From assembly GCA_900318085.1 (NCBI GenBank), contig ONJF01000030.1:1-43402 (forward strand): a stretch of 43,402 nucleotides of DNA. The letters are read 5' to 3'. The translations under genes and the position numbers were made by a program. Under the pieces are notes generated by a model. The model was given only the letters and a program-made list of their open reading frames with translations, was not told the DNA's origin and did no database searches. Below are positions 4,398 through 12,932 of the stretch, in pieces; the stretch's first letter is position 1; each line of letters starts with the position of its first letter. The stretch is from an uncultured Bacteroidales bacterium. GTDB taxonomy: Bacteria > Bacteroidota > Bacteroidia > Bacteroidales > F082.

Positions 4398-5751
4398 ACC
4401 TAAAACCTTATTCAATGAAGGCTGTTCGATGGCTTTCGATGAAGAGCATTGGCAGAAAATCAACTACAGCACGGGTTGTTTTGAGCAGAGTTTTTCAAAA
4501 GGAAAGGAAAACTATCGCAACCTCGAGTTGGAGAAACAGCGTGCCTATACCTTGCGCAACAAGTCGCTGTTGAGCCTGGAAAAGCTATTGGTTGATTTTG
4601 AGACCCATTTCGTCGAAAACGGGGGCAAAGTGTTGTGGGCACGCAACGCCGACGATGCCTTGACGATGATATTCGATCTCATAGCCAAGGAAAAGGCCAA
4701 TGCCATCACACGATCCAATTCCAATGTGCTCGATGAGATAGAACTCAATGGTTTCTTGGAGAGTAAGAACATCCAGATCGTTGAGACGCAAGTGGCTCGT
4801 TTCGTTGAGCATGCCGCAGGCAAACGGTCATATCACCCGGTGTCGCCTTCCATCCATCTCTCGAAGGAAGAAAACAATGCCATACTTACCGAAAACTACA
4901 AACTGAAGCCCGATAGCACGGCCAAGCAGATGGTCAACTTTGTGCGGCATCGTGTGGGTGTGGAGAGTAATGATGTGCCGATTTGCATCACGGGAGCCAA
5001 CTTCTTGCTTTCCGATGTGGGTGGTGTGGTGCTCACCGAGAATGAGGGTAATATTTTGAAAGCCACTTCTCAAGCCAAGGTTCATATTGTGGTGGCAGGC
5101 ATTGCCAAAGTCATTCCGAGTTTGGATGATTTGGGTGTCTTGTTGCCTTTGTTGTCGTTGCATGCCTCCGGACAAAGTATGGCTGCTTGCAATAGCATCA
5201 CCTTTGGTCCTGTCCAACAGGGTTTGGGTCCCGAGCAGATGTATGTCATCCTTTTGGACAACAACCGTTCGGAGTTGCTTAAGCACGAGGACCAGCGCAA
5301 GGTGATGTCGTGCATCCATTGTGGTGCTTGCGTCAGTGTTTGTCCCATCTATAAACACATTGGAGGCTATGCCTATGGCACCAAGCATGTGGGTCCCGTG
5401 GGCACGGTGATGACGCCATTGATGGAGGGACTGGAGGACTACAACCACCTCAACTCGGCTTGTTCGCTTTGCGGCAAATGCACGGATATCTGTCCCGTGA
5501 AGATTCCGTTGGACGACTTGATTATCGCCAACCGTCATTTGGCCATTGTGGAAAAGACGGGCAACTCAAGATACGATGCCCTGTTGAAGGCCATGATTTG
5601 GCATTGCAAGTCGCGCAAGAAGATGGACAGTCCGCTGTTCTTGAAAAAACTGGAGGCCAAACGCTTGATGGCTTCATTGGGGAGTCAAGTGGCGATGCCT
5701 GAATTTGCCGCCAAGTCGTTCAGCCAGCAGTGGAGGGAACGGAATCTTTAA
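4390..5751 (+). CDS. LutB-like iron-sulfur protein (LUD domain plus two 4Fe-4S clusters)
   Basis: About 453 residues, close to LutB of the LutABC L-lactate oxidation complex. The N-terminal two thirds form the LUD domain: the segment CITGANFLLSDVGGVVLTENEGN and the ATSQAKVHIVVAGIAKVIP stretch are typical. The C-terminal third has two ferredoxin-like motifs, CIHCGACVSVCP and CSLCGKCTDICP. The frame is open further upstream, but that part overlaps rpiB out of frame. The family N-terminus suggests ATG 4390 (MSEPKTLFNEG), overlapping the rpiB stop by 8 nt. LutA and LutC partners are not adjacent. Convergence with the next gene is tight: the stop codons overlap at 5748-5751. The role in lactate or other 2-hydroxyacid oxidation is inferred from family only. 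Confidence 0.85.
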   Translation: MSEPKTLFNEGCSMAFDEEHWQKINYSTGCFEQSFSKGKENYRNLELEKQRAYTLRNKSLLSLEKLLVDFETHFVENGGKVLWARNADDALTMIFDLIAKEKANAITRSNSNVLDEIELNGFLESKNIQIVETQVARFVEHAAGKRSYHPVSPSIHLSKEENNAILTENYKLKPDSTAKQMVNFVRHRVGVESNDVPICITGANFLLSDVGGVVLTENEGNILKATSQAKVHIVVAGIAKVIPSLDDLGVLLPLLSLHASGQSMAACNSITFGPVQQGLGPEQMYVILLDNNRSELLKHEDQRKVMSCIHCGACVSVCPIYKHIGGYAYGTKHVGPVGTVMTPLMEGLEDYNHLNSACSLCGKCTDICPVKIPLDDLIIANRHLAIVEKTGNSRYDALLKAMIWHCKSRKKMDSPLFLKKLEAKRLMASLGSQVAMPEFAAKSFSQQWRERNL

Positions 5752-6347
5752 GCCAATAAGTTTCCTAGTTTTTCACCTATGTCGCTTTTGGCTTCCTGAT
5801 GGCCTTCAAGGTCAAGTTCGGTGGAGTATTTTTCAATGGCGTTATTGAAAGCCTCTTCGTTAGGTGTGCCTTCGTCGTAAAGTGCGAAGATATCGCCAAA
5901 CTTGATTTGATAGTCGTGATCCATGAGCAAGGCATCGCTCACATCCTGCATCTCATCGAACATCTTGATGTATTCTTCCACAAAGGTTCGTGCATCTTTA
6001 TCAGGGTCGCCGGTTGGTTGGATAGGTTCTATGGTTTCCGTTCCATCTTCACGCTTCATGATTCTTGTCATATAAAGCATTGAGGCTTTGATATTCTCTT
6101 GTTCATCTTCTGTCATTTGGCCGAAAACCTTGTTGAATTCGTCGAGTTTACCATTGGCAGTATAGTGGTCGAAATACATTTTCTTGATGCGTTCGATTTC
6201 GCTGCTGGCGGTTTCGACATCATCGATGTTTTCGACAGAGATGCCATACATGATGGTCGTTTTGATCAAGTCTCTTGCGTCTTGGGTCATGTCGTCGGTT
6301 GGACTCAATGCGTCCACGATGGATTGATAGAAGTAATCTGTGTTCAT
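5748..6347 (-). CDS. Acidic helical protein downstream of the reverse transcriptase
   Basis: A 199-residue protein that I do not recognise. It is rich in Asp and Glu, lacks a signal peptide or membrane segment, and appears largely helical (segments such as ASSEIERIKKMYFDHYTANGKLD). No cysteine cluster or catalytic motif is apparent. It starts 20 nt after the RT stop on the same strand, so it is probably translated from the RT transcript. Its stop overlaps that of the convergent LutB-like gene, leaving no room for a separate terminator. Its position suggests an accessory partner or regulator of the RT, but nothing in the sequence proves this. Confidence 0.7.
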   Translation of the reverse strand: MNTDYFYQSIVDALSPTDDMTQDARDLIKTTIMYGISVENIDDVETASSEIERIKKMYFDHYTANGKLDEFNKVFGQMTEDEQENIKASMLYMTRIMKREDGTETIEPIQPTGDPDKDARTFVEEYIKMFDEMQDVSDALLMDHDYQIKFGDIFALYDEGTPNEEAFNNAIEKYSTELDLEGHQEAKSDIGEKLGNLLA

Positions 6348-6367
6348 AGTGTTGGTGTTTTTATGGG

Positions 6368-7675
6368 TTAGTTTTGTTCTTGTTTCTTATAGTTATAGTA
6401 TTCGTTAACCAAACTCTTGTAGCCTAAGTCTTTAAGTCTTTCATAATCCACTCTAAAGTTTGTCTTGTTGTGTTTTCCAGTGCTGATGAAGCGGATATAC
6501 TGCTGCAGGTAATGGTCGATTTCCTTTAGGCCATCGGTTTGGTTGATGACGGGAAAAAACCACCGTGACCAGGTGAGTGTTTCGGGGTCGTCGCTCTCGA
6601 AGAACTTGCGGTTGAAATAGTTGATGAGGGCTTTCATGGCCTTTTCGGAGTCGATATGGTTCTTATGGCTCCAACGCAATAATGATCTCGCTTTGCGGGA
6701 TATTTTTCCCTTCATTTTCTTTTTAGTGGCTTCCGAGATGTCGATGTCGTGACCATGGCATTTGAAGCCTAAAAACTCATAGGCCTCATCGGGCGAGTAA
6801 ACCTTCTCCTTGTCAGGGTTGACCTCCAAATGATATTGTGCCAAAAAGTGGCACATCCTCTCTTTGTATTGTTGGAGCGTGTCATAGTCAGGCGCAAACA
6901 TGATGATGTCGTCGGAATAGCGGGCATATACCACACCTTGATTATAAAAGTATAAGTCCACTTCTTTCAGAAACACATCCGCCAGGAAAGGTGCCGTGGG
7001 TGTGCCGGCCATCACGCCATGTTTTTCCTCTATGACTTGGCCATTGCTGATGGCAAGGTTGGTCGTCAATAGTTTTTCGAAGAAATGATACAAAGGCAGG
7101 TCATTGGCTAACATCTCGGCTAACATAGGCAACAAAATGTCGATATCGATGGAGTTGAAATAGTCGTGGATGTCGAGTTTGTAGGCCCACATATTCTGTC
7201 CTTGGATGGCCTTGTTGATTTTGAAGACGGCATCATGGGCTTTCTGGCCACGGCGGAAGGCGTAGCAGTTGGGTGCAAATTGGTCGTCGTATTTGTAGAG
7301 CAGGAAGGCGATGAGTTTGAGGACAAGCATTTCGTCGGGTGCGAAGCTGTAGACTATGCGTTTCTTGCCCGAGCCCATCTTGTTGACCAGTTTCTTGGTG
7401 GGGATACCTATACCTTCGCCTTGTGCGATTTTGGTGGCCAAAGGGAGATAGTCTTCCCTTTCCACAAAGGCATCGGCTTCGTTGAACTCATGCCAGTTGA
7501 AGCGACCTTTCAGCAGTCGATAGGCGAGAAACTCTTCCCAGGTTTGTTGAAAGGTCAGTTGAGAGATAATAGAGACACGAGACTTCAAGTCTTTTGGACA
7601 AAGAGTCGGCCCTTCGACAGGCTCAGGGACTTTTTGTCCCGTGTCTCGAAGTCTTGTGTCCCGCGTCAAAGACAT
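6368..7675 (-). CDS. Divergent reverse transcriptase
   Basis: A 435-residue RNA-directed DNA polymerase with a complete RT palm. YKLDIHDYFNSID carries the first catalytic Asp (D168). VMAGTPTAPFLADVFL (residues 221-236) occupies the position of the usual QGxxxSP motif. YARYSDDIIMF carries the active-site YSDD (253-256), followed by LEVNPDKEK and FLGFKC. A basic helical thumb-like region follows (KGKISRKARSLLRW, YFNRKFFE). There is no maturase zinc or endonuclease domain and no recognisable fused domain. The lack of QG/SP argues against a typical group II intron RT, and YSDD is not the common retron YADD. The first about 38 residues derive from nested repeats (7572-7665), and the RT proper appears to begin near QLTFQQTWEEFL. 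No promoter box lies directly upstream, so it is probably cotranscribed with the 7850-8371 gene. Confidence 0.9.
   Translation of the reverse strand: MSLTRDTRLRDTGQKVPEPVEGPTLCPKDLKSRVSIISQLTFQQTWEEFLAYRLLKGRFNWHEFNEADAFVEREDYLPLATKIAQGEGIGIPTKKLVNKMGSGKKRIVYSFAPDEMLVLKLIAFLLYKYDDQFAPNCYAFRRGQKAHDAVFKINKAIQGQNMWAYKLDIHDYFNSIDIDILLPMLAEMLANDLPLYHFFEKLLTTNLAISNGQVIEEKHGVMAGTPTAPFLADVFLKEVDLYFYNQGVVYARYSDDIIMFAPDYDTLQQYKERMCHFLAQYHLEVNPDKEKVYSPDEAYEFLGFKCHGHDIDISEATKKKMKGKISRKARSLLRWSHKNHIDSEKAMKALINYFNRKFFESDDPETLTWSRWFFPVINQTDGLKEIDHYLQQYIRFISTGKHNKTNFRVDYERLKDLGYKSLVNEYYNYKKQEQN
7572..7665. repeat. Nested repeat in the RT N-terminal codons
   Basis: An imperfect inverted repeat (GACACGAGACTTCAAGTC near 7573 against GTCTCGAAGTCTTGTGTC near 7643) encloses a copy of a different repeat, CCTTCGACAGGCTCAGGG at 7611-7628, also seen at 20190-20213 and 41597-41620. 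All 94 bp are open in the RT frame and encode RLRDTGQKVPEPVEG and the following residues. Confidence 0.75.
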
Positions 7676-7705
7676 ACTTAAGATAGATGTTGAGATTAAT
7701 GAAAA

Positions 7706-7843
7706 AGAAAAAGGGGAATGATTTTGAATCGGTAAAATTACCGATCACGAGAGGGTACCTTGTCGGGTTGCCTGCAAAACCGAGAAATGAACGACAAGGC
7801 TGCCTCCTTCGGCAGGCGCGGCGGTGCCGCATCCCCTTTTTCT
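7706..7843 (-). ncRNA. Closed multi-hairpin element between accessory gene and RT
   Basis: A perfect 12-bp stem (AGAAAAAGGGGA at 7706-7717 with TCCCCTTTTTCT at 7832-7843) encloses four more inverted repeats. These are 7728-7735/7738-7745 (ATCGGTAA/TTACCGAT), 7758-7765/7792-7799 (CCTTGTCG/CGACAAGG), 7800-7804/7811-7815 (CTGCC/GGCAG) and 7818-7822/7826-7830 (GCGGC/GCCGC). It begins 6 nt after the upstream gene's stop and ends 30 nt before the RT ATG. The end-to-end closing stem and position upstream of an RT resemble retron-type RNAs. The outer stem plus T-rich tail on the minus strand could also act as a terminator, or the element may be another mobile nested repeat. Transcription as a discrete RNA is inferred, not shown. 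Confidence 0.45.
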
Positions 7844-7849
7844 GTGTTT

Positions 7850-8371
7850 TTAGTTCAAGAACTTGCGGATGCGACCGATGACATAGTCGCGTTCGTTGGG
7901 CATCTGGGTGTAGAAGTTGATGTAAGGAAAGCCCAATTTCTTGGCATACATGCGGGCGATGAGGTACTTCACGTTGCTGTCGTGGCTATGGCCTTTGCCG
8001 AGCATCACCACGCCTTTGACGCTGCCCAGTTGTTCGAGCACGAAGGTATAAGGCTGTCCCCATTCGGCTTTGTAGGCCTGACGCGGGCGCGTCTTGTAGA
8101 GTTGGAACTCGTCGTTGGCGAAACCTGCGATGTCGGTCACCGGCACGTTTTCCCTGACTGTGTATTGAGGAAATGCCGTGGCCAGAATCTCGCGGAAGTA
8201 GGCCAGCCATTCCGAGTCAGTCCGTACGATTTCTTCTTCATAGTGCGGTGTGGCGGGCTGTGGTGTAGGTTTAGGCTGTGCCGTCGGTTGTGATGCAGGT
8301 TTGGCTGCTGCGGTTTCGATGTTTTCTTTCACGACATCGACCAGTTTCGAGAATAGTTTTCCGAAGTCCAT
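7850..8371 (-). CDS. Small protein with possible nuclease-like fold, upstream of RT
   Basis: A 173-residue protein of unknown family. Residues 1-22 form an amphipathic helix (FGKLFSKLVDVVKENIE). A Pro/Ala/Gln-rich linker follows at about 23-44, then a compact alpha/beta domain from about residue 50. The domain has LAYFREILATAFPQYTVRENV, a strand FQLYKTRPR, GVVMLGKGHSHDSNVKYLIARMYAKKLGFPYINFY, and a C-terminal ERDYVIGRIRKFL. The arrangement recalls small restriction-endonuclease-like proteins, but I cannot identify a firm catalytic triad. It has its own promoter box at 8400-8407. The gene is followed within 6 nt by the multi-hairpin element and then the RT, suggesting one transcription unit. 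Functional linkage to the RT is inference. Confidence 0.7.
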   Translation of the reverse strand: MDFGKLFSKLVDVVKENIETAAAKPASQPTAQPKPTPQPATPHYEEEIVRTDSEWLAYFREILATAFPQYTVRENVPVTDIAGFANDEFQLYKTRPRQAYKAEWGQPYTFVLEQLGSVKGVVMLGKGHSHDSNVKYLIARMYAKKLGFPYINFYTQMPNERDYVIGRIRKFLN

Positions 8372-8399
8372 GATATTAAAGTTTTTATATTATTCGAGG

Positions 8400-8407
8400 C
8401 AAAGATA
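8400..8407 (-). promoter_or_regulatory. -7 promoter box of the RT cassette
   Basis: TATCTTTG on the minus strand matches TAnnTTTG, 28 nt upstream of the ATG at 8371. It overlaps a small palindrome AAAGATAAATCTTT (8401-8414). It is the only convincing promoter box upstream of the 7850-8371 gene, the hairpin element and the RT. Confidence 0.55.
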
Positions 8408-8425
8408 AATCTTTTAATTGAAATC

Positions 8426-8842
8426 TTATTTTTCTTTTTCAATTATTTTCATCATCTCAGCCGGTGTGACTACAAAATCCACTTTTGGATAATGTTTCAT
8501 GTTGCCAGTTACGAGAAACGAATCTTCTTTTGACAAAGCCACCTCGTAAAACACTATATCTTGTGGGTCGGGAAAGAACTCTTTTGAAGGTTTTCTTGTT
8601 GTTGAAACGCCATCTGATTTCAACATGTTGATGAAGTTTTCTATTTTTTCTTTTGGGAGTTGGAACTTCTCTCTGTTCAATACGCTTTTGTATTCTTCAA
8701 GTATTTCTTCACAATACAATGGCGTAATGTTTTTGTCGCTCAAACTTGCCAATACACCAACTGTCGGAGATTCAGGATTTTTTGTAATCATTCCTGAAAC
8801 GACAACATTGGTATCAATGACAGCAAATATTTTGCTCATCAC
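8426..8842 (-). CDS. PIN-domain toxin
   Basis: A 138-residue PIN-domain protein of the 'putative toxin-antitoxin system toxin component' type. PIN domains are metal-dependent ribonucleases with clustered acidic residues. Here these are the N-terminal VIDTNVVVSGM (Asp10), an acidic helix CEEILEEY, the FPDPQDIVF segment (Asp92, Asp95) and the late SFLVTGNMKHYP strand typical of the fold. Its start overlaps the antitoxin stop by 4 nt (ATGA), so translation is coupled. A second ATG directly follows the first. The expected role is RNA cleavage held in check by the upstream RelB-like protein. Family and partner assignment are solid from sequence; the target RNA is unknown. Confidence 0.85.
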   Translation of the reverse strand: MMSKIFAVIDTNVVVSGMITKNPESPTVGVLASLSDKNITPLYCEEILEEYKSVLNREKFQLPKEKIENFINMLKSDGVSTTRKPSKEFFPDPQDIVFYEVALSKEDSFLVTGNMKHYPKVDFVVTPAEMMKIIEKEK

Positions 8843-9132
8843 TTCTTCTCCCTTGCTAATCGGATTTCTTCATTGATTTCATCCAAGGTCATATCGGGAA
8901 ATGCACCTTGTTCCGCCATTTTTCTGATTTCCCAAAATGCTCTACGGCCTTCCTCATGGATGGCATCTTTTTCAGATATTTCGATCTCGAAAGGTATTTT
9001 GCGCTTGCGGATAACGGTACGGATAAAAATGTTGAAAGCAGTTGTTGCGCTCATGCCGAAATCTTCGCAAAGTGTATCAAACCGATTTTTTAAATCTGAA
9101 TCCAAACGGATAGTATAAGCAGATTGTGACAT
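8839..9132 (-). CDS. RelB/DinJ-family antitoxin
   Basis: 97 residues starting MSQSAYTIRLDSDLKNRFDTLCEDFGMSATTAFNIFIRTVIRKRKIPFEI. This N-terminal ribbon-helix-helix pattern is typical of RelB/DinJ antitoxins, which bind their own operator and neutralise the toxin through the acidic C-terminal part (DMTLDEINEEIRLAREKK). An upstream in-frame ATG would give 108 residues. I reject it because the promoter box TATATTTG (9152-9159) lies inside that extension. The gene is coupled to the PIN toxin by ATGA. RelB/DinJ proteins are better known with RelE/YafQ toxins, so a PIN partner is a mixed pair. Confidence 0.85.
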   Translation of the reverse strand: MSQSAYTIRLDSDLKNRFDTLCEDFGMSATTAFNIFIRTVIRKRKIPFEIEISEKDAIHEEGRRAFWEIRKMAEQGAFPDMTLDEINEEIRLAREKK

Positions 9133-9151
9133 AATGTTTATATTTTGACTG

Positions 9152-9159
9152 CAAATATA
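9152..9159 (-). promoter_or_regulatory. -7 promoter box of the toxin-antitoxin operon
   Basis: TATATTTG on the minus strand, 20 nt upstream of the chosen antitoxin ATG at 9132. It fits TAnnTTTG exactly and decides the start codon. Confidence 0.6.
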
Positions 9160-9227
9160 CAGCATTTTTTGAATATTTGTATATTTTTATTCAAAAAAAG
9201 TACCAATACTATTATTATAAAGAATAC

Positions 9228-9253
9228 AAAGTTTCCTAAATAAAGGAAACTTT
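9228..9253 (-). terminator. Hairpin downstream of the 9393-10517 gene
   Basis: A perfect 10-bp inverted repeat AAAGTTTCCT (9228-9237) / AGGAAACTTT (9244-9253) with a 6-nt loop, T-rich on both sides. It probably ends transcription coming from the minus-strand gene before the toxin-antitoxin promoter. A second GC-richer hairpin (AAACCGC 9271-9277 / GCGGTTT 9288-9294) lies just upstream in that direction and shares CCGCCACGGYAACCGC with the terminator at 10731-10755. Confidence 0.55.
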
Positions 9254-9310
9254 TATTTCTAAGCATAAATAAACCGCCACGGCAACCGCGGTTTGTCGCA
9301 AGTGGTTCGC

Positions 9311-9391
9311 ATTACAAATGCTGATATTCGATGCTGGGGGATGGCAAATCTGCCAGAACTGGGAAAATTATATCTCTCTAGGCCAGAACTG
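9311..9391. repeat. Degenerate repeat remnants between gene and terminator
   Basis: GCATTACAAATGC (from 9309) and GATGCTGGGGGATGGCAAATC resemble the 'N-TTGCAAT-N' palindromes at 10621-10671. A direct repeat GCCAGAACTG occurs at 9352-9361 and 9382-9391. No gene is visible here. The relation to the other family is tentative. Confidence 0.3.
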
Positions 9392-9392
9392 A

Positions 9393-10517
9393 TTATTCTG
9401 GTTTTCTTAAGGTATGAGTCCAAAAATCATTCAATTCGTATTTCCTTTTCCATAAATGCTCTTTGATAGCCTTATCGGTTTCACAAATATCTAGAAGAAA
9501 TAGATAATATTGATACTTTCTGTTTGGAAGATACTCTTCTATTGTTTTATATGTTGTTCTATAGTATTCCTCTTCCTCTTTCTCAATTTGAATATCATCC
9601 GTACCATCACGTACGATGTTATATAAGCTTCTATATACCTCGATGTTGTCCAAATACGCATACCGAATCTTTTTTATCGCATAATACTTGCCTCCTATTT
9701 TATACACTTCGGTATTATCCATGGTCATAAGATTATCCAAATGTTGCGAAAAACAAACTCGGTGTACATACTTATTTTGCACAGAATCAAATATTTCCCA
9801 ATTACTATAATGTGGAACTAAATAAGTTAGTGAATCTAAATTGATGAAATCAGCAGCAATCGCATTTAATAGATAATCCTCATCTGCAATGTAATACAAA
9901 TCATAATGTGTTTTCAACCTTAAGCAACAGGCAAATGGAGGATAAAACTCTGGATAACCATATACCACCTCTTGAATGACATAGTTTGTTCCTGTCTTAC
10001 AATCCGTTCCAATGATTTCATCCCCCTTGTCTTTTGAATCTGTAACTATGTGAAGCCCGTCAAGATTATCAGTTGTGTATATATTTTGAAACCATAATCT
10101 ACCATAATCCAGTTTATAACAAACCTCATGTATGAAAAAGTTGTCATATATACCGTGCTTCGGATAAAAATCATGGTTATTGTATGGCTTTATCTCTAAA
10201 AAGCATGTGTCGGATACCTTTATCTCATTATTATAAGTTATTCCAGTAGTAGAAGGCGATAGCAAAACAAATATTCCATCTTTGTTTTCAATATGAATAA
10301 TATATGTTTCGTTCCACTTACTATTCTCACATGAGTGTTCCTTTTTGTTTAGCGATTGTATAGAAAGAATCCTAAAAGTGTCTTTTACAACAGAAGGAGT
10401 CTCGCTAATAAATAATCCTTTACATTGATATTTATTAGTGTGAACAGAAATCTCAACCTGTCCAAAAATATGCGCAACGGGCAACAATAGTAGTAATAAA
10501 AATGATGTCTTTTTCAT
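9393..10517 (-). CDS. Unknown secreted protein
   Basis: A 374-residue protein that I do not recognise. It has a clear signal peptide (MKKTSFLLLLLLPVAHIFGQ, cleavage expected after HIFGQ) and a mature part rich in Tyr, Asp and Asn with many short strands. A few cysteines are present (for example CKGLFISE, ACCLRLKTHYD). No repeats or catalytic motif are evident. It is AT-richer than the neighbouring glycan and EF-G2 genes, as is the comparable unknown lipoprotein at 30644-32104. Its ATG overlaps the stop of the preceding small ORF (ATGA), suggesting translational coupling. The stop at 9393 is followed by two hairpins. Export to the periplasm or surface is the only functional statement I can support. 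Confidence 0.75.
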   Translation of the reverse strand: MKKTSFLLLLLLPVAHIFGQVEISVHTNKYQCKGLFISETPSVVKDTFRILSIQSLNKKEHSCENSKWNETYIIHIENKDGIFVLLSPSTTGITYNNEIKVSDTCFLEIKPYNNHDFYPKHGIYDNFFIHEVCYKLDYGRLWFQNIYTTDNLDGLHIVTDSKDKGDEIIGTDCKTGTNYVIQEVVYGYPEFYPPFACCLRLKTHYDLYYIADEDYLLNAIAADFINLDSLTYLVPHYSNWEIFDSVQNKYVHRVCFSQHLDNLMTMDNTEVYKIGGKYYAIKKIRYAYLDNIEVYRSLYNIVRDGTDDIQIEKEEEEYYRTTYKTIEEYLPNRKYQYYLFLLDICETDKAIKEHLWKRKYELNDFWTHTLRKPE

Positions 10518-10699
10518 TTTCCTCTTCTTATTCTAAATTCTTCTAGTATTTGTTCTATATCAGGTAAAACAGGTTGTAATGTAGCTGCTTTATGTGCTTC
10601 TTCAAATTCTTGTCCCCGTTCCAGCGAATTTGCAATTCGCTGGTGCCGAATACGGGGATTTGCAATCCCCGAAATATGTATCACGTCTTCCCATAACAT
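10514..10699 (-). CDS. Small repeat-containing ORF, possibly a gene relic
   Basis: A 61-residue frame starting MLWEDVIHISGIA. Residues 10-27 are translated from the palindromic repeat at 10621-10671 (GIANPRIRHQRIANSLE), and the native-looking tail is FEEAHKAATLQPVLPDIEQILEEF. The tail is plausibly helical, and the stop overlaps the next ATG by 4 nt as in real coupled genes. The frame is open further upstream but would run through the EF-G2 terminator and promoter, so I use the ATG at 10699. The leader from the box at 10714-10721 would be only about 8 nt. It could be the remnant of a gene whose N-terminus was lost or replaced by the repeat. Confidence 0.4.
   Translation of the reverse strand: MLWEDVIHISGIANPRIRHQRIANSLERGQEFEEAHKAATLQPVLPDIEQILEEFRIRRGK
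10621..10671. repeat. Twin palindromic repeat (TTGCAAT core)
   Basis: Two adjacent palindromes, CCAGCGAATTTGCAATTCGC with TGG, and CGGGGATTTGCAATCCCCG, share the core TTTGCAAT. Both are read through in the small ORF. The design parallels the other in-frame repeats but with a different sequence. Confidence 0.7.
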
Positions 10700-10713
10700 A
10701 CTTGTTTTGCGGA

Positions 10714-10721
10714 CAAAAATA
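10714..10721 (-). promoter_or_regulatory. -7 promoter box after the EF-G2 terminator
   Basis: TATTTTTG on the minus strand matches TAnnTTTG and follows the EF-G2 terminator by a few bases. It likely drives the small ORF and the secreted-protein gene. Confidence 0.45.
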
Positions 10722-10730
10722 ACAAAAAAA

Positions 10731-10755
10731 CCCCGCCACGGTAACCGCAGCGGGG
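10731..10755 (-). terminator. Rho-independent terminator of the EF-G2 gene
   Basis: On the minus strand CCCCGC (10755-10750) pairs with GCGGGG (10736-10731), followed directly by seven T residues (10730-10724). It lies 42 nt after the EF-G2 stop. Confidence 0.75.
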
Positions 10756-10796
10756 AAAAAATGCAATACTTATGAAAAAATACTCTTGTTTCTTTT

Positions 10797-12932
10797 TTAT
10801 TCTTCTTCCTTCTGGCTCTCTTCGTACTCCTTGAGGAGGCGGTTCTGCACATCGGTGGGCACTTGCTGGTATTCAGCATACTTCATGGTGAAGGTGCCAC
10901 GGCCCGAGGTCAGCGAGCTCAGTGAGGTCGAATAGCGGTCCATCTCAGCCAACGGAACCTTGGCGTGAATGGTCTGGTAGTTGTGGTCGCTGTCCATGCC
11001 CATGACAATGGCGCGACGGCCTTGCAAATCGGTCATGACGGCACCCATGAGGTCGGCGGGCATGCGCACGTCGAGGTCGTAGATGGGTTCCATGATCTTC
11101 GGGCCAGCGTTCTTGAAGGCGGCGCTGAAGGCCATACGACCGGCAATCTTAAAGGCCATTTCGTTGGAGTCGACCGGGTGCATCTTACCATCGTAAATGT
11201 AGACGATGATGTCGCGGGCATAAGAACCCGTCAGCGGGCCTTGCTCGAGGCGCTCGTTGACACCCTTCAGGATGGCAGGCATGAAGCGGGCATCGATGGC
11301 ACCACCGACGACGCAGTTGGCGAAGATGAGCTTGCCGCCCCAAGGCAGTTCGTACTCCTGCTTGTCGCGCACCTGCAGTTCGCTCGGGTCGGTGTAACCT
11401 TCGAAGTAAGGAGCCAGTTGCATGTGCACCTCACCGAACTGACCGCTACCACCTGATTGTTTCTTGTGACGGTAGCTTGCGCTTGCGCTCTTGGTGATGG
11501 TCTCACGATACGGGATCTTCGGCGAAGCCGTCTCGATGGCGATCTTATAGACATTGTCGAAGTACCACTTCAGGGTGTTGAAGTGATATTCGCCTTGGCA
11601 CTGCAGGATGTTCTGGCGCAGCTCACGCGACATGCCGGCGATGACGGTCGGGTCGGTCTTGTGGATGTCGTTGAGGATGCTACCGAGTTTTTCGTCTTCC
11701 TGTGAGTTGACGGCCTTGACGGCGATCGAGAAGATCGGGGTTGGGAACGGGATCTCGGGGAAGGTGGCTTCGGCGGCCTTGGCGTCAACCAAGGAGTCAC
11801 CGATACGGCCGTCCTTCAACTTGATGGTGCAGATGATGTCGCCAGCGTTGACTTTCTCAACCTCTTCGCGGTTCTTGCCGCGGAAAGCGAGCAGCTGTGA
11901 GAGACGCTCCTTGTTGCCGGTACGCGGGTTGATGAGGTCTTGGCTCTTCACGACGGTGCCGCCGTAGACGCGCATCCAGGCCACATCGCCGAGGTTTTGC
12001 TCGGTGGTCACCTTGAAGATGAACAGGGCGGTCGGGTCGTCGACGCTGTTGTGGAACTCTTGGCCGTTGTTGGCTTTCACAGCCGGCATGTCGGCAGGCG
12101 ACGGGCAGGCGTTGATGAGGAAGTCCATCAGACGGGTGACACCCACGCCACGCTTGGCAGCGCCGCAAATGACGGGGAACATCTCACGGTTGACGATACC
12201 CAGGTGGATACCGCGTTCCATATCCTCTTCGCTCAAGGTCATCTCTTCGAAGAACTTCTCCATCAGAGCCTCTTCGCCTTCGGCGGCGTGCTCGATGAGG
12301 TTGTTGTGCAGTTCTTCAGCCTTGGCCATCTCGGCAGCGGGGATGTCCTGGATCTCAGGGGCACCGTTGCCATCCTTGAAGACCAACATCTTCATCATGA
12401 TCAGGTCGATGACAGCGTTGAAGTCTTCACCGGCGTTGACGGGATATTGGATGGGCGTGACTTTGTCGCCGAAATACTCCTTCAGTTCACGGATGGTGTT
12501 GTCGAAGTTGGCGTTGCTGTGGTCGAGTTGGTTCATGAAGAACACAACAGGCTTGTTGGTGTTGGCAGCGTGACGCCAGGCGTTCTCGGTGGTGGCTTCC
12601 ACACCCGACTGGGCGTTCACCATGCACACGGCGATGTCGGCAGCGGCGAGGCAGCTGACGATGTCGCCAGAGAAATCGCTGAAACCAGGGGTGTCAAGGA
12701 TGTTGATTTTCTTGTCGTTGTAGAGGGTGTACATCAAGGAGGCGTTCACTGAAATCTGACGCTCCATTTCGATGGGACGGTAGTCGGAAACGGTGTTCTT
12801 CTCGTCGGTGCTACCTTTTCTGTTGATGAGCTTGCCTTCGAAAAGCATGTTTTCGGCAAGTGTGGTCTTACCCGACTTTGCTGCGCCGATGAGGGCAACA
12901 TTGCGGATGTCTTTTGTCTGGAATTCCTTCAT
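10797..12932 (-). CDS. fusA2: EF-G2-type elongation factor with altered GTPase motif
   Basis: A 711-residue five-domain EF-G homologue. The P-loop is GAAKSGKT (16-23) rather than the canonical GHIDHGKT. The G3 motif is DTPGFSDF, with Phe84 where canonical EF-G has the catalytic His of DTPGHVDF. The G4 motif is NQLD (134-137) rather than NKxD. These differences match the EF-G2 paralogue group. In Bacteroides thetaiotaomicron an EF-G2 has been described that supports translation without GTP hydrolysis under starvation, and I infer this protein is of that type. Domain IV, with RHKKQSGGSGQFGEVHMQLAP and TGSYARDIIVYIYDG, and domain V (EPIYDLDVRMPADLMGAV...LQGRRA) are intact. A promoter box lies at 12993-13000 and a strong terminator follows. 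It is a single-gene unit. Confidence 0.88.
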   Translation of the reverse strand: MKEFQTKDIRNVALIGAAKSGKTTLAENMLFEGKLINRKGSTDEKNTVSDYRPIEMERQISVNASLMYTLYNDKKINILDTPGFSDFSGDIVSCLAAADIAVCMVNAQSGVEATTENAWRHAANTNKPVVFFMNQLDHSNANFDNTIRELKEYFGDKVTPIQYPVNAGEDFNAVIDLIMMKMLVFKDGNGAPEIQDIPAAEMAKAEELHNNLIEHAAEGEEALMEKFFEEMTLSEEDMERGIHLGIVNREMFPVICGAAKRGVGVTRLMDFLINACPSPADMPAVKANNGQEFHNSVDDPTALFIFKVTTEQNLGDVAWMRVYGGTVVKSQDLINPRTGNKERLSQLLAFRGKNREEVEKVNAGDIICTIKLKDGRIGDSLVDAKAAEATFPEIPFPTPIFSIAVKAVNSQEDEKLGSILNDIHKTDPTVIAGMSRELRQNILQCQGEYHFNTLKWYFDNVYKIAIETASPKIPYRETITKSASASYRHKKQSGGSGQFGEVHMQLAPYFEGYTDPSELQVRDKQEYELPWGGKLIFANCVVGGAIDARFMPAILKGVNERLEQGPLTGSYARDIIVYIYDGKMHPVDSNEMAFKIAGRMAFSAAFKNAGPKIMEPIYDLDVRMPADLMGAVMTDLQGRRAIVMGMDSDHNYQTIHAKVPLAEMDRYSTSLSSLTSGRGTFTMKYAEYQQVPTDVQNRLLKEYEESQKEEE

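Follow-up and report, generated by a model that had tools for sequence, protein, structure and literature searches.

Class 2 reverse transcriptases (RTs) of the UG families studied so far copy short templates in cis-encoded non-coding RNAs (ncRNAs) into repeat DNA, according to the available portions of two reports (PMC12632851, PMC13174585). The same portions describe the ncRNA of DRT10 as 137 nt long, with one large stem-loop and smaller ones, and place the template 3' of a stable stem-loop. The locus described here is situated in contig ONJF01000030.1 of an uncultured, gut-type Bacteroidales bacterium (assembly GCA_900318085.1); the whole analysed stretch of 43,402 nucleotides is called the window. 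It combines an RT of the UG26 family, an Rfam RT-5 RNA and a 173-aa partner protein. DRT9 (UG28) and DRT10 (UG17), both of Class 2, likewise couple an RT to a cis-encoded ncRNA comparable in size and plan to this one, and DRT10 has a small partner protein, as was found here (available portions of PMC12632851 and PMC12483538).

We read the locus as a self-contained UG26 module which copies part of its own RT-5 RNA into complementary DNA (cDNA) in the manner of the Class 2 DRTs, with a probably anti-phage output, and give this reading a probability of roughly 0.55. By analogy with these systems, RNA-templated DNA synthesis by the unit is likely and an anti-phage role is possible. The 173-aa gene, a multi-hairpin element, the RT and a 199-aa gene had been placed in one direction of transcription by an earlier, sequence-only reading of the window. 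All four were located at those places on the minus strand, the last as a neighbour which is dealt with below. The features of the unit are the following.

8400..8407, minus strand: promoter box TATCTTTG, taken from its sequence to be of the -7 type, 5' of the 173-aa gene
7850..8371, minus strand: partner protein, 173 aa, with a homologue 5' of the RT in 79 of 80 near relatives
7707..7842, minus strand: whole folded RNA (extended RT-5), bounded by the two strands of the outer stem; matched at 7699-7845 by the covariance model
7832..7842, minus strand: outer stem P1, 5' strand GAAAAAGGGGA; 11 of 11 pairs with two-sided changes, 93.9% of cells paired (70 sequences)
7812..7817, minus strand: pseudoknot, 5' strand GCCUGC; 5 of 6 pairs with two-sided changes, 98.6% of cells paired
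7770..7775, minus strand: pseudoknot, 3' strand GCAGGC of the same helix
7723..7728, minus strand: conserved UUCAAA, single-stranded and lying between helices P4 and P1; candidate template
7707..7717, minus strand: outer stem P1, 3' strand UUCCCCUUUUUC, with a U-rich run after it; covariation in 70 sequences
7715..7821, minus strand: Rfam RF03026 RT-5 core; 83.9 bits, gathering cut-off 45.7, E 2.1e-16
6368..7675, minus strand: RT open reading frame (ORF), 435 aa
7574..7675, minus strand: N-terminal stretch added to the RT ORF by a palindromic repeat that is interspersed in the genome (repeat matches)
6368..7573, minus strand: conserved core of the UG26 RT, about 401 aa (PADLOC RT_UG26 1.7e-163, tree)
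6989..7006, minus strand: GTPTAP motif, replacing QGxxxSP; AGTPTAP is core residues 189-195
6908..6919, minus strand: YSDD active site, core residues 219-222, invariant in 46 of 46 RTs

The UG26 reverse transcriptase

The RT was identified as a member of the UG26 family. In a PADLOC profile scan, RT_UG26 was matched with 542 bits (1.7e-163) over positions 2-397 of 398, followed by UG27 (119 bits), RT (116), Drt9 (103) and UG17 (102), with UG4 and Drt3a also among the next-best UG profiles. The match is full-length, the clade is that of the UG26 RTs of the UG/Abi classification, and nothing excludes membership. The motifs GTPTAP and YSDD were recovered as the sequence-only reading had described them, and the catalytic residues D134, D221 and D222 were, like Y-S-D-D, unchanged across all 46 aligned RTs. 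Its statement that the RT has no maturase or endonuclease domain also held: the Pfam scan gave RVT_1 alone at cut-off and neither of these domains, the NCBIfam scan reached no cut-off, and the group II intron RT/maturase equivalog scored 126 bits against a cut-off of 300. In structure (predicted local distance difference test score, pLDDT, 92.5) the nearest folds to the model were the GsI-IIC group II RT (4e-17) and G2L4, then DRT9 (8e-15), the best-scoring solved DRT fold, and DRT2 (5e-11).

Retrons have their RNA directly upstream of the RT, enclosed by an outer inverted repeat. Here too the RNA lies just upstream of the RT and is closed by an outer inverted repeat, and could be imagined as an msr-msd whose outer stem would play the part of a1/a2, with a branched multicopy single-stranded DNA as product. 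The RT, however, falls outside the retron families, with 57 bits for the NCBIfam retron St85 model against a cut-off of 235 and UG26 as the best PADLOC profile, and we hold a retron-like unit to be very improbable.

A tree was calculated of 50 RTs, comprising 24 of the 46 UG26 rows and 26 outgroup RTs. Of this outgroup 20 were scanned, and at 1e-60 a label was obtained for 16 (UG27 for six, generic RT for nine and Cas1-RT for one), so that the tree compares UG26 with UG27, generic RTs and a Cas1-RT. A single branch (96/97; recovered in 98% of 200 bootstrap trees) set all 24 UG26 rows apart from the rest. UG26 and a set of seven viral RTs, of which six carry the UG27 label, together split from the 19 other RTs (99/96), and the UG27 RTs of viral contigs form the sister group of UG26. 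The phylogeny that had been proposed earlier was obtained in part, for UG26 against these other RTs. The claim of novelty had hinged on the RT not falling inside a well-characterised group, and UG26 is a catalogued group, not a well-characterised one. The border between UG26 and UG27 is not sharp, because some viral RTs are matched by either profile; the viral RT L219, for instance, gave 297 bits with UG27 and 186 with UG26. Scores between UG27 and UG26 were seen in the group of viral-contig RTs L219-L222 and L233 (scanned except for L221), and no RT-5-like RNA accompanies these RTs.

The ORF has the size of 435 aa given to it earlier, but about 34 N-terminal residues are derived from a repeat, leaving the conserved core. 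This palindromic repeat, located at 7574-7682 with core CCCTTCGACAGGCTCAGGGAC and interspersed in the genome, continues into the RT gene without a frame shift, and the N-terminus that it provides is where this copy differs from UG26 RTs; no ATG is present at the usual start position. Counting itself, the repeat has 42 matches in its own genome, the others being 24-39 nt long, with 40 scored out of 122 candidates. Similar, non-identical inserts were found at the same place in L014, L025, L026, L027 and L029, and none in L028 and L030.

The RT-5 RNA

The element noted before as a closed group of hairpins is the Rfam RT-5 RNA (RF03026), above the curated cut-off and 5' of the RT. Its minus strand folded better than shuffled sequences (z -6.05, 0 of 200 shuffles as good), and a good fold was obtained for the plus strand as well (z -4.59). 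Across 70 sequences, a structure of 42 pairs in seven helices, in which helix 1 is the outer stem and helix 3 the pseudoknot, had 94.6% of its cells paired and two-sided changes in 38 of the 42 pairs. None of 500 shuffles did as well, a control weakened by the relatedness of the sequences, and pairing was 46-52% when the partners were slid by 1-3 columns, a comparison in which the structure is favoured because it was partly derived from the same 70 sequences. Outer stem and pseudoknot are supported by compensatory changes. The fold extends past the Rfam model of 104 positions, which omits the outer stem and the first hairpin present in this RNA. At four UG26 loci (L019, L021, L022 with 41.2 bits, and L023) like RNAs are missed by the Rfam cut-off. 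Near viral RTs (17 and 30 loci, overlapping) only one RT-5-like match was obtained, at chance level (14.6 bits), and Rfam found no RT-5 on five of these loci.

The unpaired UUCAAA (alignment columns 157-162, 3' of hairpin P4) is identical in 67-70 of the 70 sequences. It is a candidate template because the template of DRT10 lies 3' of a stable stem-loop.

The same alignment bears on a DRT2-like mode, in which rolling-circle synthesis would give concatemeric cDNA encoding an endless reading frame. A frame stays open over at least two copies in 46 of 70 sequences in the RNA sense and in 40 in the cDNA sense, where 23.2 and 20.3 were expected from mononucleotide shuffles. However, the open frame is not universal, the excess occurs in both senses, and the length enclosed by P1 is divisible by three in 34 sequences and not in the other 36. 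An endless frame as in DRT2 was rejected as not conserved across the 70 sequences, and there is in our view hardly any chance that the unit works in this way.

The RNA often stops some 10-20 nt before the start of the RT, with a U-run after the closing stem. This would suit a cis-acting leader of the RT gene (a regulator, terminator or ribosome gate) instead of a template. Such a leader is nevertheless unlikely: the RNA is separated from the UG26 RT by a pair of genes in L015 (6945-9982; TrkA- and TrkH-like as judged by eye) and in the duplicate locus L085, and by a 158-aa ORF in L016. The RNA also stands alone in genome G718, and its fold, with several helices and a pseudoknot, exceeds a terminator in complexity.

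Linkage and nature of the partner protein

UG26 RTs were sampled in genomes at a threshold of E 1e-60. Among 395 sampled genomes of the phylum only the genome of the window contained one; in the order the count was 11 of 393. The end of contig C23 of G776 (L013/L024) holds a second, cut-off UG26 RT copy, in addition to the one that this genome has already. When the RT alignment was used to scan GTDB contigs, it yielded at least 590 stretches, at least 498 of which encode relatives of the RT. The best 80 were analysed, by title mostly ruminant-gut Bacteroidales metagenome-assembled genomes, with L085 and L104 duplicating L015 and L014. Since only these best 80 were used, the locus counts describe the closer relatives.

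The RNA model built in this study found the RNA in 80 of 80 of these loci (L050 partial; most rows built the model), in all 11 RT-bearing genomes of the order (most or all rows built the model) and at all ten other UG26 loci of the order sample (all ten built the model). In the genus of the window it was present at six of six loci with the RT, three of them, to judge by length, the same contigs as model rows, and at none of six loci without. In 79 of the 80 loci the RT has a homologue of the partner on its 5' side, encoded by the same strand. The sole exception, L050, is cut by the contig end; the partner of L079 is a 52-aa piece at a contig start and that of L085 lies 3.2 kb from the RT. Among the ten other UG26 loci of the order sample, five have a partner homologue (L014-L018). 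Because all ten carry the RNA and five the partner, RNA and RT are regarded as the core and the partner as a feature of a subclade. The minimal unit is RNA plus RT, and the three-part unit of partner, RNA and RT, with conserved order and linkage, is firmly established for the near subclade. The earlier interpretation is supported in that the RT is neither of the retron nor of the maturase type and is accompanied by a structured RNA and a small partner.

The promoter box that the sequence-only reading had assigned to the 173-aa gene recurs in the relatives: of the 80 partner ORFs tested, 47 have TAnnTTTG in the 120 nt on their 5' side, where mononucleotide shuffles led to an expectation of 4.7. 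Partner gene, RT-5 RNA and RT would probably be carried by a single transcript from the promoter before the partner.

The partner consists of an amphipathic N-terminus, a P/Q-rich linker and an alpha/beta domain of about 115 aa. PADLOC RTasCOG2852 is matched weakly by this protein (4e-5) and by 38 of 44 partners at 0.01, the best with 3.1e-8. The Pfam scan gave no credible family (best E 0.007) and a PDB sequence search with the partner profile had 0 matches. In the AlphaFold2 model (mean pLDDT 86) the blocks from residue 51 on reach at least 94. With this model, the first five Foldseek matches were TnsA, Bax1 and McrBC entries (E 0.09-0.35), which we take to be PD-(D/E)XK nucleases; RTasCOG2852 is presumably related to these nucleases too, being Vsr- and DUF559-like. 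A VRR_NUC domain followed at rank 35. The domain is predicted, from a weak fold match, to be PD-(D/E)XK-like. Unlike the nucleases, the partner apparently has T/S109 and M123-L-G125, in most of 86 homologues, where the catalytic D and E-x-K are expected, these positions being placed by predicted strand order; because of these replacements we infer that the nuclease fold is dead, its catalytic residues seemingly being absent. The mean amphipathic moment of the N-terminus was 0.53 against 0.37 for shuffled sequences (86 sequences, some with uncertain start codons). In L086 (6875-7851) the partner gene occurs in two tandem copies, one with a hydrophobic N-terminal stretch.

Genomic context and function

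Within the genus of the window, the place of the unit is flanked by LutB and EF-G (window 5751-10797; EF-G was named by eye). Twelve genus loci were compared at this spot. The unit is present in six (L154-L157, L160 and L162; EF-G is not reached in L154 and L162), the spot is empty in L152 with the two genes 163 nt apart, and other genes fill it in L153, L158, L159 and L163; L161 also has other genes, its contig stopping before EF-G. The unit is gained or lost as a block and the EF-G/LutB gap is a variable spot in the genus. The neighbours of 45 GTDB-contig loci with both flanks formed 15 groups (single linkage may lump contexts). A gene pair for a RelB-like antitoxin and a PIN-domain protein lies at 8426-9165, between the partner gene and EF-G, and a PIN-like gene fragment is also present in L157.

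This patchiness, with 11 of 393 order genomes, presence or absence at one genus site and 15 context groups, resembles that of accessory genes. It speaks against a non-defence job for the same RNA-templated enzyme, as a domesticated chromosomal function in regulation, stress response or DNA metabolism. The same holds for the antiviral nature of the DRT systems in the available portions of the cited DRT literature, and for the report of UG26 in cold-seep viruses in the accessible text of PMC10504277. In favour of such a job, the flanking genes are mostly metabolic, transport and housekeeping genes (by Pfam, transporters, glycosyl hydrolases and metabolic enzymes), and the partner-less RTs L020, L021 and L023, all of one genus, occupy one site between YggS-like and LysO-like genes (named by eye). 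Moreover, no close UG26 was present among the matches listed in phages, plasmids and IMG/VR viral contigs (best about 24-32% identity overall and about 25% for phages and plasmids, the plasmid search covering at most 5000 records); of ten viral RTs scanned, nine matched UG27 best, four of these also scoring with UG26, and one was unlabelled. A non-defence job is considered possible, on the doubtful side.

Several observations weigh against our reading of the unit as a DRT-like, probably anti-phage module. At 1e-15, PADLOC matched at most seven, probably three, of 122 flanking proteins (at most 41 loci; no control flanks), by seven models of three kinds (PDC-S01, mad2 and PglZ) with one protein each, so that the context gives no usual island argument for defence. 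No partner homologue was found at L019-L023, the other five of the ten order loci, and the divergent partners of L016 and L018 miss RTasCOG2852 at 0.001. Foldseek ranks 6-34 for the partner, mostly unrelated folds, scored alike (E 0.45-1.1). In G718 a complete RT-5-like RNA (L212, 1337-1475) has no RT within about 1.3-1.5 kb and is followed by a kinase-like gene, and the genome has no RT match at 1e-60; since the G718 assembly is fragmented into about 1230 contigs and 82% complete, either a loss or a gap may account for this. A weak 48-nt match to the RNA model in G679, probably due to chance, is counted on the same side. A telomerase-like A-B-A' test was non-discriminating, with 3.10 nt against 3.05 nt for permuted pairings (85 of 500 as high); compared with shuffled flanks the repeat was longer (3.10 against 2.34 nt, 0 of 300).

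As a DRT-like module, the unit would operate through binding of the RT-5 RNA by the UG26 RT, which would copy a short unpaired segment of this RNA into cDNA as in DRT9 and DRT10, the conserved UUCAAA being the likeliest segment. The partner, PD-(D/E)XK-like and apparently dead, would sense, hold or transmit the cDNA product, perhaps at the membrane, where its amphipathic N-terminal helix may place it. A conserved structured cis ncRNA, a trait of Class 2 DRTs, is present in this locus family, and UG26 appears to resemble these systems in RT profile, in RNA size and plan and in its small partner. From DRT9 and DRT10 it differs in the RT clade by profile, in the sequence of the ncRNA and in a COG2852-like partner instead of SLATT; furthermore, no poly-U template was recognised here and the flanks scanned showed no sign of a defence island. 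A more daring view is that of a telomerase-like synthesiser of short repeats, templated by UUCAAA beside the pseudoknot, whose cDNA would signal via a dead, membrane-bound nuclease fold in a Bacteroidales house function outside defence islands; we think this rather improbable.

The gene that follows the RT was proposed earlier as a member of the system:

5748..6347, minus strand: acidic 199-aa protein, neighbour gene, without homologue at 90 other loci

This proposal was rejected. No homologue was found at the 90 other loci (two of them duplicates), and among 60 genus genomes the protein is present in its own and in none of the 59 others; for this reason it is regarded as a neighbour and not a component. 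Profile scans gave it no credible family. Of the two flanking genes expected to co-occur with the RT, the partner does so (79 of 80) and the 199-aa gene does not (0 of 90).

The system was called possibly undescribed by the sequence-only reading. This stands for its function, as no work on UG26 function was found in the open-licence literature searched, nor any joining COG2852 and an RT. It does not stand for its identity: the parts (UG26, RT-5 and, by a weak match, RTasCOG2852) are already catalogued, and the unit is of a known but uncharacterised kind. As far as could be seen, the new points concern the complete fold of the RNA, including its outer stem and pseudoknot, the nature of the partner and the site at which the unit is present or absent.

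UG26 is a UG RT for which no described product was found, and this work supplies a complete, testable unit for it. The unit now comes with likely RNA ends, a covarying pseudoknot and outer stem, a candidate template, a partner, and both empty and occupied sites in the genus. If RNA-templated DNA is made, the group of DRT9, DRT10 and telomerase-like enzymes would be widened; if its role is not antiviral, UG26 would be an RT of this group with another job.

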